Part shown: one piece after another, positions 10,659 to 26,925 of the stretch | Numbering within the stretch: position 1 is the first letter of the stretch | Layout of the letters: each line of letters begins with the position of its first letter | Origin: Bacteroidota bacterium | Lineage (GTDB): Bacteria; Bacteroidota; Bacteroidia; Flavobacteriales; Flavobacteriaceae | DNA length: 57,252 nucleotides | Assembly (NCBI GenBank): GCA_027621505.1 | Contig: JAQCBK010000006.1 | Coordinates: 1-57,252, forward strand | Direction of reading: 5' to 3' | Made by a program: the position numbers and the translations under genes | The notes under the pieces: generated by a model | Seen by the model: only the letters and a program-made list of their open reading frames with translations | Told to the model about the DNA's origin: nothing | The model's database searches: none

Positions 10659-10688
10659 AAAAAGCCTCCAGATGGAGGCTTTTTTTTT
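10657..10688. terminator. Bidirectional intrinsic terminator
   Basis: AAAGCCTCC-AGAT-GGAGGCTTT forms a perfect 9-bp stem with a 4-base loop. It is preceded by a run of A and followed by eight or more T, so it can end transcription in both directions. It sits between the converging aminotransferase (stop 10658) and DAHP synthase/chorismate mutase (stop 10687). Confidence 0.93.
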
Positions 10689-11769
10689 AACCGTTGATCA
10701 CCTTTTCTTGGTGATTGATCGATTCCTGGTGAATCGCTTTAAAAATCCGGCTGATAAAGTCCTCACTCAATCCCCTTTGGCTGCCTTCTTGTTGCATGCT
10801 CTCTAAGATTTCATTCCAGCGTCTGTTTTGTAGAACCGCCACATTATTGTCCTTTTTAAGCTGACCGATGGAAGCAGCCACTTTCATCCGTTTGCCCAGA
10901 GCATCCAAAATGGCTTGATCGATAACGTCAATTTGTTCTCTTAAGGTTTCCAATTCAGTACGATACCCTTCTTCGTTGGTGGTTTTCTTACGAATGGTTA
11001 ATTCTTTCATGATTTCGACCAATCGGGTGGGGGTAACTTGTTGCTTGGCATCGCTCCAGGCATTGTCAGGATCCCAATGGGATTCAATCATCAATCCGTC
11101 GAAGTTCAAGTCCAACGCCCTTTGACTGAGATCAAAAATCAAGTCCCTGCGGCCTGCAATATGAGAGGGGTCACAAATCATGGGAATATCAGGAAATTTA
11201 TTTTGAAATTCTACTGCAATTTGCCACTCGGGATTGTTGCGGTATTTTGATTTGTCATAGGTTGAGAATCCACGGTGAATGGCCCCCAATTTTTTGATGT
11301 CGGCAGTATACAGTCTTTCCAAACCACCCATCCATAGCGCCAAGTCGGGATTTACTGGATTTTTTACCAAAACGATTTTATCGGTTCCACTCAATGCATC
11401 CGCAATTTCTTGAACGATAAATGGGCTTACGGTGGAGCGCGCTCCAATCCATAAAATATCAATATCCGCTTCCAAAGCCAGTTTGACGTGGTCTTTGTTG
11501 GCTACCTCTGTACTGGTCAATAAGCCGGTTTCTGCTTTTACCTTTTTGAGCCAGTCCAAACCAATGGCACCCACCCCCTCAAACATGCCTGGGCGGGTTC
11601 TCGGTTTCCAGATACCCGCTCGATAAACCGATACATCGGTATCTTTGAGTTCGTGGGCGATTTTAAGAACCTGCTCCTCTGTTTCTGCACTGCAAGGGCC
11701 AGCAATGACCAGAGGATGATCCAGTCCAAAATCATCCAGCCAATTTCTCATTTCTTTTTTATTTTCCAT
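10687..11769 (-). CDS. Bifunctional DAHP synthase / chorismate mutase
   Basis: Makes DAHP from PEP and erythrose-4-phosphate, and converts chorismate to prephenate: the first shikimate step and the branch point to Phe and Tyr. The N-terminal type I-beta DAHP synthase domain (about 1-255) shows VIAGPCSAE, YRAGIWKPRTRPG, WIGARST, LVKNPVNPD and MICDPSHIAG. The C-terminal AroQ chorismate mutase domain (about 270-350) shows LREQIDVIDQAILDALGKRM. The synthase-then-mutase order is that known from Porphyromonas and other Bacteroidota, the reverse of Bacillus. It is the last gene of the aromatic operon, 6 bases after tyrA. Confidence 0.95.
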   Translation of the reverse strand: MENKKEMRNWLDDFGLDHPLVIAGPCSAETEEQVLKIAHELKDTDVSVYRAGIWKPRTRPGMFEGVGAIGLDWLKKVKAETGLLTSTEVANKDHVKLALEADIDILWIGARSTVSPFIVQEIADALSGTDKIVLVKNPVNPDLALWMGGLERLYTADIKKLGAIHRGFSTYDKSKYRNNPEWQIAVEFQNKFPDIPMICDPSHIAGRRDLIFDLSQRALDLNFDGLMIESHWDPDNAWSDAKQQVTPTRLVEIMKELTIRKKTTNEEGYRTELETLREQIDVIDQAILDALGKRMKVAASIGQLKKDNNVAVLQNRRWNEILESMQQEGSQRGLSEDFISRIFKAIHQESINHQEKVING

Positions 11770-11775
11770 GCTTGT

Positions 11776-12636
11776 TTAATTTTTGGTTTTGGTGATACCG
11801 TCCAGAATTTGTCGAATACCGTTGATCTCTGCAATCTGCTCGTGTAGTTCTTCAAATTTACCAGCTTCCAAAAGGTTTTTGAATTGATTTAAGTTGTTGA
11901 TGTATTCTGTTAGGGTTTCGATGATGTTCTGTTGATTCTGTTTAAAAATCGGAATCCACATATGGGGGGCGCTTTTGGCCAGTCGAACCGTAGAGGCAAA
12001 GCCACTGCCCGCCATATCAAAAACGGTGGCGTGATCTTTTTCTTTTTCCATTACGGTCTTGCCCAACATATAGGAACTGATGTGGGACAAATGGGAGACG
12101 TATGCAATGTGTTGGTCATGTTCAATGGGATCCATTTCCCTGAGGTTCATCCCCATTTTTCTGAACCAATCTTGAGCCCACTCCAATAGATCGGGACGGG
12201 TCCTCTCGGTTTCACAAAGGATTTGAATTTTATCACCAAACAAATTGGGTAAAGCCGCCTCCGGTCCAGCGTATTCGGTTCCAGCTATGGGATGGGTGGC
12301 CAAAAACTGACCGCGTTTGGAATGCAGGGCAATATGCTGACAGATCGCCGATTTGGTGGATCCAAAATCGATGATCAGCGCGTTATCGTTGACCTCATCG
12401 AGTAGGTCGATTAACCGATCCAAGGCGGCATCCACAGGAATGGCGATTAGGATGACATCCATCTGTTGGATTAAATTTTCCTCCAGCTTGTGGTCAATCA
12501 AGCCCAAATCCAAGGATTTTTGGAGATTGGCCTCACTGCGATTGCTGCCATAGAGGATGACATCGGGAATGTGTTCCCGAGCCGATAAAGCCAACGAACC
12601 TCCTATCAATCCTACACCGATGATTCCTATATTCAT
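11776..12636 (-). CDS. tyrA: Prephenate dehydrogenase
   Basis: Oxidatively decarboxylates prephenate to 4-hydroxyphenylpyruvate for tyrosine synthesis. It has 286 residues: an N-terminal Rossmann domain with GIIGVGLIGGSLAL, then the substrate-site HPIAGTEYAGPEAA (near 115-130) and SHLSHISSYML helical region. There is no C-terminal ACT domain, so any Tyr feedback is not built in that way. It overlaps the upstream aminotransferase by 4 bases, indicating coupled translation. Confidence 0.93.
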   Translation of the reverse strand: MNIGIIGVGLIGGSLALSAREHIPDVILYGSNRSEANLQKSLDLGLIDHKLEENLIQQMDVILIAIPVDAALDRLIDLLDEVNDNALIIDFGSTKSAICQHIALHSKRGQFLATHPIAGTEYAGPEAALPNLFGDKIQILCETERTRPDLLEWAQDWFRKMGMNLREMDPIEHDQHIAYVSHLSHISSYMLGKTVMEKEKDHATVFDMAGSGFASTVRLAKSAPHMWIPIFKQNQQNIIETLTEYINNLNQFKNLLEAGKFEELHEQIAEINGIRQILDGITKTKN

Positions 12637-13781
12637 TTTTTACTAATTCTTTCTATAGCCTTACTGATTTGCTCTGCTTTCACACACAAGGAGAAACGAA
12701 TGTATCCCTCTCCTTGGGTGCCAAAAATACTACCCGGGGTGATAAAAACATGATGTTTTTGTAAAATTTCTTCAATAAGCTCCACCGCAGATTTTGAGGG
12801 ATCACGTAGCTTGGCCCAAACGAATAGACCACAGCTGTGAATGTCATAATCTGTATTCAAAAGGTCGGCCAGTTTAAAGACCAATTTTCGTCTTTGGCTG
12901 TAAACGTCATTCAACTGTTGGAACCAACTGTCCTTGGCATTGAGGGCGGCAATGGCCCCCATCTGAATGCCTAAAAACATACCAGAGTCCATGTTGCTTT
13001 TAACTTTGAGTACCGAGCCAATGTTTGCTGCATTTCCCAAAACCATGCCCACCCGCCAACCGGCCATGTTGAAGGATTTGCTAAGGGAGTTCAATTCCAT
13101 CCCCACCTCCATCGCTCCCGGAACAGAAAGCATACTTTGGGGACGGTCGGTCAAGACAAAACTGTAAGGATTGTCATTTATCAAAAGGATGCCCTTTTTT
13201 TTGGCCCATGGGATGAGCTGCTCGAATGTTTCCCGCTGAGCTCTGGCCCCAGTGGGCATATGGGGATAATTGACCCACATTAGCTTTACCCCGCTTAAGT
13301 CCATTTGATCTAAGGCATTCAGATCCGGTTGCCACTGGTTGGAGGGCTTGAGGTTGTAAAAAACAGGTACTGCCTCTACCAATCGGGTAACCGACTCATA
13401 GGTGGGATAGCCAGGATTGGGAATAAGAACTTTATCTCCAGGATTTAAAAATGCCAGTGAGATATGCATGATCCCTTCCTTGGATCCCATCAAAGGAAGA
13501 ATCTCTGAATTGGGTTCGGCATTGACCTGATAATGTTTTTTATAAAAATCAGCAATGGCTTTTCTCAACTCGGGAATGCCTTGGTAGCTTTGGTATTGAT
13601 GAACCTTGGGGTGGCTGATACTGTCTTGAAGTGCCGCAATGACCTTTGGGTGAGCGGGCAAATCAGGACTACCGATGCCCATATTGATGACCGGTTTTCC
13701 TGCGGCTAGCATTGCAGCAACTTCTCTCAGCTTTTTTGAGAAATAGTATTCTTGAACACTATTGAGTCTGGTTGCTGTCAT
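12633..13781 (-). CDS. PLP aminotransferase, probably aromatic/prephenate
   Basis: A 382-residue fold-type I aminotransferase. It has NMGIGSPDLPAHPKV near the N terminus, LMWVNYPHMPTGA in place of the common NPNNPTG, LINDNPYSFV, and the PLP-lysine motif LNSLSKSFNMAGWRVGM. Lying between pheA and tyrA with 4-base overlaps on both sides, it most likely transaminates phenylpyruvate and 4-hydroxyphenylpyruvate, or prephenate. This assignment comes from context; sequence alone gives only the class I/II family. Confidence 0.85.
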   Translation of the reverse strand: MTATRLNSVQEYYFSKKLREVAAMLAAGKPVINMGIGSPDLPAHPKVIAALQDSISHPKVHQYQSYQGIPELRKAIADFYKKHYQVNAEPNSEILPLMGSKEGIMHISLAFLNPGDKVLIPNPGYPTYESVTRLVEAVPVFYNLKPSNQWQPDLNALDQMDLSGVKLMWVNYPHMPTGARAQRETFEQLIPWAKKKGILLINDNPYSFVLTDRPQSMLSVPGAMEVGMELNSLSKSFNMAGWRVGMVLGNAANIGSVLKVKSNMDSGMFLGIQMGAIAALNAKDSWFQQLNDVYSQRRKLVFKLADLLNTDYDIHSCGLFVWAKLRDPSKSAVELIEEILQKHHVFITPGSIFGTQGEGYIRFSLCVKAEQISKAIERISKK

Positions 13782-14602
13782 GATTTGCCAGATTTGTATT
13801 CGCCCAAAACCTTAAAAGCCGTGGACATGATTTCCAATAATGATTTGGCTTTGGAGTAATCCAGAGGATCACCAAAAGTTACATCGACAAAAAAAGCATA
13901 CTTTCCAGGGGTTTCAATGACCGGTAAAGATTGAATTTTTGTAAGGTTTAAATTGCAGTCGCTCATGACGTTGAGCGCAGTGGCCAAACTGCCACGCTTG
14001 TGATCCAAAACAAATTTCCAAGAAGCTTTGCTGATTTTTTGCTGTTGCTCTGGCACATGTTTCTGTACAATCACAAAACGGGTTATGTTGTTTTTGATGG
14101 TTTGGATGGAGGCGCTTAGAATGTCTAAGCCATAGATTTCTGCTGCTCGATGTCCAGCAATAGCACCCTTTGCTTTGGTTTTATCTTTGCTGATCTTAAA
14201 GGCTTCCTCAGCCGTGTCATCACTTTCGACCAATTTGATGTGAGGATAATTGAGGAAAAACTTTTTACACTGCAACAAAGCCATGGGATGCGAATGAACT
14301 TCTTTGATGTCCTCAATTTTCTGGCCAGCAAGCGCCATCAAATTATGGTCGATACTGAGATAATGCTCTCCACTGATCACGAGATCGTATTGATCCATTA
14401 GGGCATAGTTGGGTAAAATGGATCCTGCAATTGAATTTTCAATGGCCATGACCGCCTGATCACAGTCACCCTCAGCAACTGCTCTTGCCAATGCGTCAAA
14501 AGTTCGGCATTCCAACATTTCAGGAGTGGAGGTATAGTATTGCTCTACCACTTGATGATGAAAAGACCCTTTGATGCCCTGTATGCCTACCTTATCTATC
14601 AT
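13778..14602 (-). CDS. pheA: Prephenate dehydratase
   Basis: Converts prephenate to phenylpyruvate. It has 274 residues: a catalytic domain with NSIAGSILPNYALM (near 57-70) and the catalytic NNITRFVIV (TRF motif near 170), then a C-terminal ACT domain (about 190-270). The ACT motifs are not the classic GALV and ESRP: they read GSLATAL and IQSLP, so Phe feedback may differ from the E. coli type. It is the first gene of the four-gene operon, whose leader carries an attenuator ending 6 bases before this ATG. Confidence 0.94.
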   Translation of the reverse strand: MIDKVGIQGIKGSFHHQVVEQYYTSTPEMLECRTFDALARAVAEGDCDQAVMAIENSIAGSILPNYALMDQYDLVISGEHYLSIDHNLMALAGQKIEDIKEVHSHPMALLQCKKFFLNYPHIKLVESDDTAEEAFKISKDKTKAKGAIAGHRAAEIYGLDILSASIQTIKNNITRFVIVQKHVPEQQQKISKASWKFVLDHKRGSLATALNVMSDCNLNLTKIQSLPVIETPGKYAFFVDVTFGDPLDYSKAKSLLEIMSTAFKVLGEYKSGKS

Positions 14603-14607
14603 GTTTC

Positions 14608-14637
14608 AAAAAAAAAGTCCCGATAAATCAGGACTTT
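14608..14637 (-). terminator. Attenuator terminator of the pheA operon leader
   Basis: On the minus strand AAAGTCC and GGACTTT form a perfect 7-bp stem around TGATTTATCG. The stem can extend by a T-G wobble and GA-TC pairs, and nine T follow immediately. It is an intrinsic terminator placed between the promoter and the pheA ATG, with its T-run ending 5 bases before that ATG. Transcription of pheA therefore requires read-through. Confidence 0.9.
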
Positions 14638-14660
14638 CTTATTAACTATATTTATAGATG

Positions 14661-14729
14661 TTACAAAGTCCTGTCTGCTTCCGAATAGAAGTAGTAAAAA
14701 GGAAAGTTGTAATACAATTGATTTTTCAT
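14661..14729 (-). CDS. Phe/Tyr-rich leader peptide of the pheA operon
   Basis: A 22-codon ORF (ATG at 14729, TAA at 14661-14663) that begins MKNQL. Residues 6-15 are YYNFPFYYFY, eight aromatic codons out of ten: five Tyr and three Phe. It ends SEADRTL. It starts about 17 bases after the G of the promoter -7 box and precedes the attenuator terminator, so it sits exactly where a ribosome-sensing leader peptide should. Its composition matches the end products of the operon it precedes, Phe and Tyr. Function as a sensor rather than as a protein is inferred from layout. Confidence 0.9.
   Translation of the reverse strand: MKNQLYYNFPFYYFYSEADRTL
14665..14672 (-). promoter_or_regulatory. Antiterminator arm of the pheA attenuator
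   Basis: The minus strand reads AGGACTTT, lying in the last codons of the leader peptide. It is an exact complement of AAAGTCCT, the 5' arm of the terminator stem, so it can form an 8-bp antiterminator that excludes the terminator. A ribosome paused at the Tyr/Phe codons (last at 14685-14687) leaves it free. A ribosome reaching the stop codon covers it. Confidence 0.82.
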
Positions 14730-14745
14730 TTTTATTTTATCGGCA

Positions 14746-14775
14746 CAAATGTAAGATACTTTTGGCAAAAACAAA
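14746..14775 (-). promoter_or_regulatory. Promoter of the pheA operon
   Basis: On the minus strand TTTG (14775-14772), an 18-base spacer and TACATTTG (14753-14746) match the Bacteroidota -33/-7 consensus exactly. Transcription would start a few bases further, giving a leader of about 140 bases before pheA that includes the leader peptide and terminator. Confidence 0.85.
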
Positions 14776-15110: not shown

Positions 15111-16112
15111 ATGACTGAAAAAAAGTCAAAGCCCTTGCTGCGCTGGGGGATTATAGGTTGCGGTGATGTGACAGAGGTAAAAAGCGGGCCGGCCTATCAA
15201 AAAACGGCAGGTTTTGAATTAAAAGCCGTGATGAGAAGGAACCAGGAAAAAGTTAAGGATTACGCACAACGTCATGGCATAGAAAAATATTTTACCGATG
15301 CCGATACATTGATCAATGATCCCGATATTGACGCAGTGTATATTGCAACGCCGCCAGACAGTCATTTATTCTACGCCCTAAAGGTGGCTGCCGCTGGTAA
15401 AATCTGTTGTATCGAAAAACCCATGGCGCCTTCCTATGAGGAGAGCAAGCAAATCCTTGAAGTTTTTGAAGAAAAGAACATTCCTCTTTTCGTTGCCTAT
15501 TACCGCCGGTCTATGCCGAGGTTTACCAAAGTAAAAGAGTGGCTGAATCAAGCGGAAATTGGAACGGTCAGGCATATCAATTGGCAGCTGAGTCAGCCTC
15601 CCAACGCCTTGGATTTGTCGGGAGACTACAATTGGCGAACCGACCCTAAAGTGTCAGCTGGTGGCTATTTTGATGACTTGGCCAGTCATGGTCTGGATTT
15701 GTTTGTCTATTTTTTAGGTGAAATTCAAGAGGCGTCAGGAGTAAGCCTCAACCAACAGGGCTTGTATGCTGCAAAAGATGCCATTGCAGCCACTTGGTTG
15801 CATCGGGGGGGCATAACCGGTGCTGGCGTATGGAATTTCGGCATGGCATCTATGGACAGGGTAGAGATTTTCGGAAATCAAGGAAAGATATCGTTTTCAT
15901 TATTTGAGGAGAAGCCGCTTATTTTAGAAAAAGAGGGTAAAAAAACAGCCCTTTTTATCGAACATCCACAACACGTTCAAATGCCCCATGTAGAAAACAT
16001 GAAAAAACACCTCTTGGAGGGAGGTTATTCCCATCCCTCAACCGGAAACTCTGGAGCACATACCAGCTGGGTCATGGATCAAATCCTGGGCAAAAAAACC
16101 CCCAATCATTAG
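15111..16112 (+). CDS. Gfo/Idh/MocA family oxidoreductase
   Basis: An NAD(P)-dependent sugar or polyol dehydrogenase-like protein of 333 residues. The N-terminal Rossmann motif is RWGIIGCGDVTEVKSGPAY (about 10-28). The family catalytic EKP is at EKPMAPSYEES (near 102), and the YFDDLASHGLDLF stretch (near 185) carries the conserved Asp/His. The C-terminal domain is the usual open beta sheet. Substrate is unknown and neighbours give no sugar pathway. It appears to be transcribed alone or with gldA, 48 bases downstream. Confidence 0.85.
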   Translation: MTEKKSKPLLRWGIIGCGDVTEVKSGPAYQKTAGFELKAVMRRNQEKVKDYAQRHGIEKYFTDADTLINDPDIDAVYIATPPDSHLFYALKVAAAGKICCIEKPMAPSYEESKQILEVFEEKNIPLFVAYYRRSMPRFTKVKEWLNQAEIGTVRHINWQLSQPPNALDLSGDYNWRTDPKVSAGGYFDDLASHGLDLFVYFLGEIQEASGVSLNQQGLYAAKDAIAATWLHRGGITGAGVWNFGMASMDRVEIFGNQGKISFSLFEEKPLILEKEGKKTALFIEHPQHVQMPHVENMKKHLLEGGYSHPSTGNSGAHTSWVMDQILGKKTPNH

Positions 16113-26820: not shown

Positions 26821-26865
26821 GTTGCTTTAGTGGGGGTGGATTTGACAATCGCATTTTAAAGCAAC
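26821..26865 (-). promoter_or_regulatory. Expression platform between SAM-II aptamer and metK
   Basis: Read on the minus strand, GTTGCTTTA (26865-26857) pairs perfectly with TAAAGCAAC (26829-26821), giving a 9-bp hairpin that ends 4 bases before the metK ATG. In its loop GTCAAATCC (26846-26838) is the exact complement of GGATTTGAC in the aptamer core (26909-26901). TGCTTTA can also pair with TAAAGCA at the 3' end of the aptamer (26874-26868). The two folds exclude each other, as expected of a translational switch. Confidence 0.7.
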
Positions 26866-26916
26866 ACTGCTTTAGCATTTTTTTTTTGAGGTTGCAATCA
26901 GTCAAATCCCTCCTCA
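26866..26916 (-). ncRNA. SAM-II riboswitch aptamer
   Basis: On the minus strand GAGG (26915-26912) pairs with CCTC (26891-26888) as the P1 stem. The loop contains GGATTTGAC and GATTGCA, and after an A-rich joining segment comes ATGCTAAAGC. These blocks and their order match the SAM-II consensus known from alphaproteobacteria and Bacteroidota, where the 3' part folds back into a pseudoknot around SAM. It lies 10 bases after the promoter -7 box and upstream of metK. Confidence 0.87.
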
Positions 26917-26925
26917 TTGATGGCA

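Follow-up and report, generated by a model that had tools for sequence, protein, structure and literature searches.

The window, i.e., the whole stretch of 57,252 nucleotides analyzed here, was from a marine flavobacterium (Flavobacteriaceae) and carried, on its minus strand, an RNA element of approximately 130 bases directly 5' of a four-gene operon (Table 1). The genes were arranged in the order pheA, aminotransferase, tyrA, and DAHP synthase/chorismate mutase, with phenylalanine and tyrosine as products; matches to Pfam and NCBIfam bore out the operon assigned in the first-pass annotation. The gene on the 5' side of the element was divergent (oxidoreductase-like, start at 15111, plus strand), and, therefore, no upstream gene needs the terminator found there. 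The exact promoter claimed in the first-pass annotation was confirmed; it matches the flavobacterial consensus TAnnTTTG, which PMC9723704 (2021) places at -12 to -5. From the position of the -7 box (14753-14746), the transcript probably starts near 14741, with approximately 12 nt separating this start from the leader ORF. In 58 of the 61 genera, a TAnnTT[TA]G box was present at most 75 nt 5' of the leader ATG, as against 11% of shuffles. A generic promoter/terminator scanner listed neither the promoter nor the terminator of the pheA leader, because it sought sigma-70 boxes and expected a T-run after the stem, whereas the T-run here was within the stem. Elsewhere in the window, TACATTTG was found shortly upstream of a SAM-II riboswitch (RF01726, 77 bits; 26862-26921, minus strand).

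Table 1. Positions of the pheA leader elements and operon genes in the window.
Feature	Position	Strand	Basis
-33-like promoter box, TTTG	14772..14775	-	Sequence; 18 nt 5' of the -7 box
-7 promoter box, TACATTTG	14746..14753	-	Sequence; exact match to TAnnTTTG
Leader ORF, MKNQLYYNFPFYYFYSEADRTL, 22 codons and TAA	14661..14729 (ATG 14729)	-	Sequence, translation
Aromatic codon run YYNFPFYYFY, presumed stall region	14685..14714	-	Translation, leader composition
Small hairpin, last aromatic codons CTACTTCT and purine-rich spacer GGAAGCAG	14675..14694	-	Pairing energies
Antiterminator 5' arm, CAGGACTTT	14665..14673	-	Overlaps last leader codons; 11 nt after last aromatic codon
Intrinsic terminator, 13-bp stem, loop TTTA	14611..14640	-	-15 kcal/mol; z -4.7 versus shuffles
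Terminator T9 run, predicted end of attenuated transcript (~130 nt)	14608..14616	-	Sequence
pheA, prephenate dehydratase (putative first regulated gene)	13778..14602 (ATG 14602)	-	Pfam PF00800, E 1.4e-55
Class I/II aminotransferase	12633..13781	-	Pfam PF00155, E 1e-61
tyrA, prephenate dehydrogenase	11776..12636	-	NCBIfam NF006307 above cut-off, E 2.4e-103
DAHP synthase fused to chorismate mutase type II	10687..11769	-	Pfam PF00793 and PF01817

Translation of the leader ORF yielded the length and aromatic run previously noted, and no Shine-Dalgarno sequence was seen. At the end of this ORF, AGGACTTT (14672-14665) was, as also claimed, exactly complementary to AAAGTCCT (14637-14630), and the complementarity reached 9 nt (CAGGACTTT with AAAGTCCTG, 14637-14629) inside the 5' arm of the terminator. 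The strong terminator described just before pheA was recovered with a marked folding energy and z-score (Table 1), and the leader combined this intrinsic terminator 5' of the first gene with a mutually exclusive antiterminator sharing its 5' arm. The fold of the whole leader (14750-14603) was stabler than those of shuffles (z -3.5) and had the antiterminator as its minimum-energy form; with a shorter cut of the leader, the terminator form was favored over the antiterminator. The two hairpins were nearly balanced in the window: -13.7 and -14.5 kcal/mol for the antiterminator and terminator, respectively. A small A/T hairpin (CTATAAATATAG; 14646-14657, minus strand) lay between the arms, inside the antiterminator loop, and A/T palindromes resembling it were found at the same place in many relatives.

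Relatives of pheA were collected from 80 named contigs and whole genomes, and upstream regions of 60 further genera of the family were taken from the better matches. A Phe/Tyr-rich leader preceded pheA in 79 of the 80 named relatives under the ATG rule (the 80th had a TTG start), and a leader with a T-tailed terminator preceded it in all 60 further genera sampled. The leader ORFs of relatives in the same genus (n = 12) were of equal length, without indels, and the four-gene operon was intact in 38 of the 40 genera with full-length loci. Within the same order, leaders were detected in five other families (f2, f3, f9, f13, and f15), and the pheA leader was not found in families f5 and f12; in other orders of the class, leader and terminator were both present at 20 of 27 pheA loci. 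Conservation in relatives, which the first-pass annotation had set beforehand as a check on its reading, was therefore observed both in the family and outside the order. One genome of the family (G034; L022 and L250) possessed the four-gene operon but lacked the aromatic leader before pheA, and other inverted repeats were seen in its place. Weaker covariance-model matches in Flavobacterium-like genomes (model positions 64-144) were dropped since the aromatic leader was absent.

Phe and Tyr accounted for 22 and 17% of the leader residues in the family, respectively (39% together), and both were present in 61 of 61 leaders; in all 61 genera, the operon was preceded by a short ORF enriched in codons for the amino acids that it makes. 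An ATG ORF of 15-30 amino acids with at least 7 Phe/Tyr residues occurred in 60 of the 61 real upstream regions versus 192 of 6,100 shuffled ones (3%). Variants with more than one leader were also found. In one genome (G059; L173 and L233, 171-400), two tandem attenuators, Phe-rich and with zero Tyr, stood before pheA, and prephenate dehydrogenase was not found in the 6.5 kb after them. The idea that a leader without Tyr marks an operon without tyrA, which this genome fits, was rejected because two other loci (L225 and L227) also lacked tyrA yet kept Tyr codons. In another genome (G603; L278 and L297), two successive leaders, MQKQLNNYFFFFNAMR and then MKRQTSTVFFYFFFIQP, preceded pheA with a terminator-like hairpin between them.

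Coevolution of the arms was scored as the best match of the stretch 3' of the aromatic run to the 5' arm of the terminator, either its own or that of other leaders. The arms were found by their best terminator match, with the permutations repeating the same search, and, using one leader per genus of the family, pairing with the own terminator was 17.35 versus 14.33 ± 0.36 when permuted. In a class set of 26 leaders, nearly all from different families and mostly one each, the corresponding values were 18.7 and 13.4 ± 0.57, with a maximum of 15.9 in 20,000 permutations. Arms unlike in sequence were still complementary: AGGACTTT/AAAGTCCT, GAGGCTT/AAGCCTC, CGGGAGG/CCTCCCG, GAGCGGTC/GACCGCTC (L235), and GGAGGCGGGA/TCCCGCCTCC (L287); weak arms were seen in some leaders (L058, L067, L076, and L030). 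When the arm register was set blind to the terminator, one paired site showed C-G 99, T-A 16, T-G 1, and C-A 6, and the next showed T-A 73, C-G 34, T-G 12, and C-A 3. Two-sided covariation in the terminators of relatives comprised 26 cells changed on both sides (0/500 shuffles); these pair counts apply to the terminator only, because a whole-leader MAFFT alignment shifts the antiterminator arm by approximately 3 columns between clades. A swap test among nearest relatives gave zero signal (11 better and 11 worse), and tree-based independent pairs provided 4-5 changes per paired position, consistent in direction and too few for significance. The case for covariation rests on comparisons between clades and between families because the arms of near relatives rarely changed; between families, the arms changed together, which is what the first-pass annotation had proposed to look for.

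The distance from the last aromatic codon to the start of the arm had a median of 11 nt (sd 1.6) in the family and 10.5 nt in the class set. The distance from the arm to the stop codon had an sd of 6.4 in the family, and in the class set the arm lay anywhere from 25 nt upstream of the stop codon to 16 nt downstream. Given the usual size of the ribosome footprint, a ribosome whose A site holds the last aromatic codon would have its edge just short of the arm. The near-constant spacing, together with a wandering stop codon, is consistent with ribosome stalling at the aromatic codons, as far as this can be read from sequence. Since an edge just short of the arm is what stalling at Phe/Tyr codons requires, emphasis on the stop codon becomes secondary: the first-pass annotation, in which the ribosome covers the arm on reaching the stop, correctly placed the arm at the end of the ORF, but the constant feature was the distance between the aromatic run and the arm.

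The last aromatic codons, which are pyrimidine-rich, also paired with the purine-rich spacer that follows them (Table 1). The energy of this codon-spacer pairing was -5.33 kcal/mol for own sequences versus -3.94 ± 0.18 kcal/mol for permuted ones in the family, and -5.52 versus -3.65 ± 0.32 kcal/mol in the class set, in which none of 20,000 permutations was as low. The previous view that only three segments are needed was, therefore, nearly right, except for this further small hairpin. In the trp leader, RNA polymerase pauses at the first hairpin until the ribosome arrives, and, by analogy, the codon-spacer hairpin may be a polymerase-pause hairpin awaiting the ribosome.

Based on the ORF, arms, terminator, promoter box, conservation, covariation, and fixed spacing described above, we infer that the element is a ribosome-mediated transcription attenuator of the four-gene operon, sensing charged tRNA-Phe and tRNA-Tyr (probability of approximately 0.9); conservation and covariation both support this reading, as put forward in the first-pass annotation. 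Transcription would start approximately 12 nt 5' of the leader ORF, with a translating ribosome trailing the polymerase. When charged tRNA-Phe or tRNA-Tyr is scarce, the ribosome would stall, its A site occupied by an aromatic codon and its leading edge just short of CAGGACTTT, leaving this arm free to pair with AAAGTCCTG; this pairing would block the terminator, and the operon would be transcribed by read-through. When both tRNAs are plentiful, the ribosome would cover CAGGACTTT, the terminator would form, and the transcript would end after approximately 130 nt.

A full four-segment attenuator of the trp/phe-operon type, in which the antiterminator arm is held in a hairpin farther upstream and a lack of translation results in termination, would account for the specific pairing of the aromatic codons with the spacer adjoining the arm, and in a few leaders (e.g., L168 and L171) the codon-spacer hairpin does extend into the arm. 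However, pairing of the arm with the upstream ORF was barely over that of permuted sequences (10.3 versus 9.9), and in the window the codon-spacer hairpin ends at 14675 and the arm begins at 14673, which makes this arrangement unlikely. Two mutually exclusive hairpins also alternate in riboswitches and T-boxes, but an RNA switch responding directly to an amino acid, a tRNA (T-box), or a protein, with the short ORF being incidental, is highly improbable: no T-box or riboswitch match in Rfam was obtained over the leader at the gathering threshold (weak chance matches only at a lax threshold), the RNA sequence between the arms was not conserved, and the sole property shared class-wide outside the arms was the presence of Phe/Tyr codons at a set distance from the arm. 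A constitutive terminator beside a chance ORF, without any regulation, has almost no chance of being correct, since leader conservation and arm coevolution in the main refute it, even if genomes of this kind often contain terminators and A/T-rich ORFs bearing Phe/Tyr codons, and an ORF like that of the leader arose in 3% of the shuffled regions.

The proposed attenuator may have a wider scope. A Trp codon was present in or beside the aromatic run in 33 of the 61 family leaders (L112-L171), which could mean that Trp is sensed too; DAHP synthase feeds Trp as well. We tentatively consider, at rather less than even odds, an ancient class-wide attenuator that responds to Phe, Tyr, and Trp alike and is read by the distance from the edge of the stalled ribosome to the arm, not by the stop codon, with the codon-spacer hairpin pacing the polymerase. 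If true, the wide upkeep of this attenuator would imply tight transcription-translation coupling across the whole of a phylum in which translation initiation does not use Shine-Dalgarno sequences.

Two other leaders in the same genome shared the general layout of the pheA leader. A His-codon leader (VKNTNHHIHVSMTHQMW, GTG start) was located before hisG (L172; G000:C96, minus strand, approximately 2230-2120), with a promoter (TATATTTG), a terminator, and an 8-nt complementary arm, and a Trp-Trp leader (MNFKQNTIIWWNERS) with a terminator and a weaker arm was located before trpE (L300; G000:C42, 1338-1440). An Rfam search at the hisG and trpE leaders gave zero matches, Bacteroid-trp included, and no leader was seen upstream of ilvD.

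The Bacteroid-trp RNA is associated with tryptophan genes and contains Trp codons. It was listed as a cis-regulatory motif of Bacteroidetes in 2010 (RF01692; PMC2864571), and zero Rfam matches to it were found in the window, placing the pheA leader outside this class. In the same year, leader peptides were described as known only in Proteobacteria and Actinobacteria, to which Firmicutes were added (PMC2965389). A transcriptome study of F. psychrophilum (PMC9723704) reported a 5' element before pheA that other genera of Flavobacteriaceae share and that Rfam does not contain, and it found 'strong clues' that amino-acid operons are preceded by leader-peptide attenuators. In the present analysis, the leader was present at the other named Flavobacterium loci examined. 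As far as its main text goes, that report provides independent support for the pheA attenuator and does not give the anatomy, codons, arms, or wider range described here. The first-pass annotation left open whether this leader had been described in the clade: its anatomy is new, but the pheA 5' element itself had already appeared in that study. Thus, the kind of mechanism is classic and its presence in flavobacteria had already been reported in outline, as a brief mention, while what is new is the anatomy, the covariation, the range across the class, and the tandem copies; the pheA leader family has no Rfam entry. The conservation of a Phe/Tyr attenuator in much of one class of Bacteroidota, together with His and Trp leaders in one genome, suggests that transcription is governed by the position of the ribosome in a phylum whose promoters and translation starts are unusual, and the leader may serve as a natural and widespread reporter for transcription-translation coupling.

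The closest known counterpart is the pheL attenuator of enterobacteria (RF01859, Phe_leader), which likewise has a leader peptide with aromatic codons before the prephenate dehydratase gene and a mutually exclusive antiterminator and terminator. On the other hand, the window leader scored 24 bits with the Phe_leader covariance model, for which the cut-off is 55 bits, placing it outside this family. Unlike pheL, the window leader has both Phe and Tyr codons and precedes a four-gene operon for both amino acids, lacks a convincing 1:2 hairpin sequestering the arm, and has a Bacteroidota promoter with no Shine-Dalgarno sequence seen. The pheL and flavobacterial pheA leaders are likely to be convergent.
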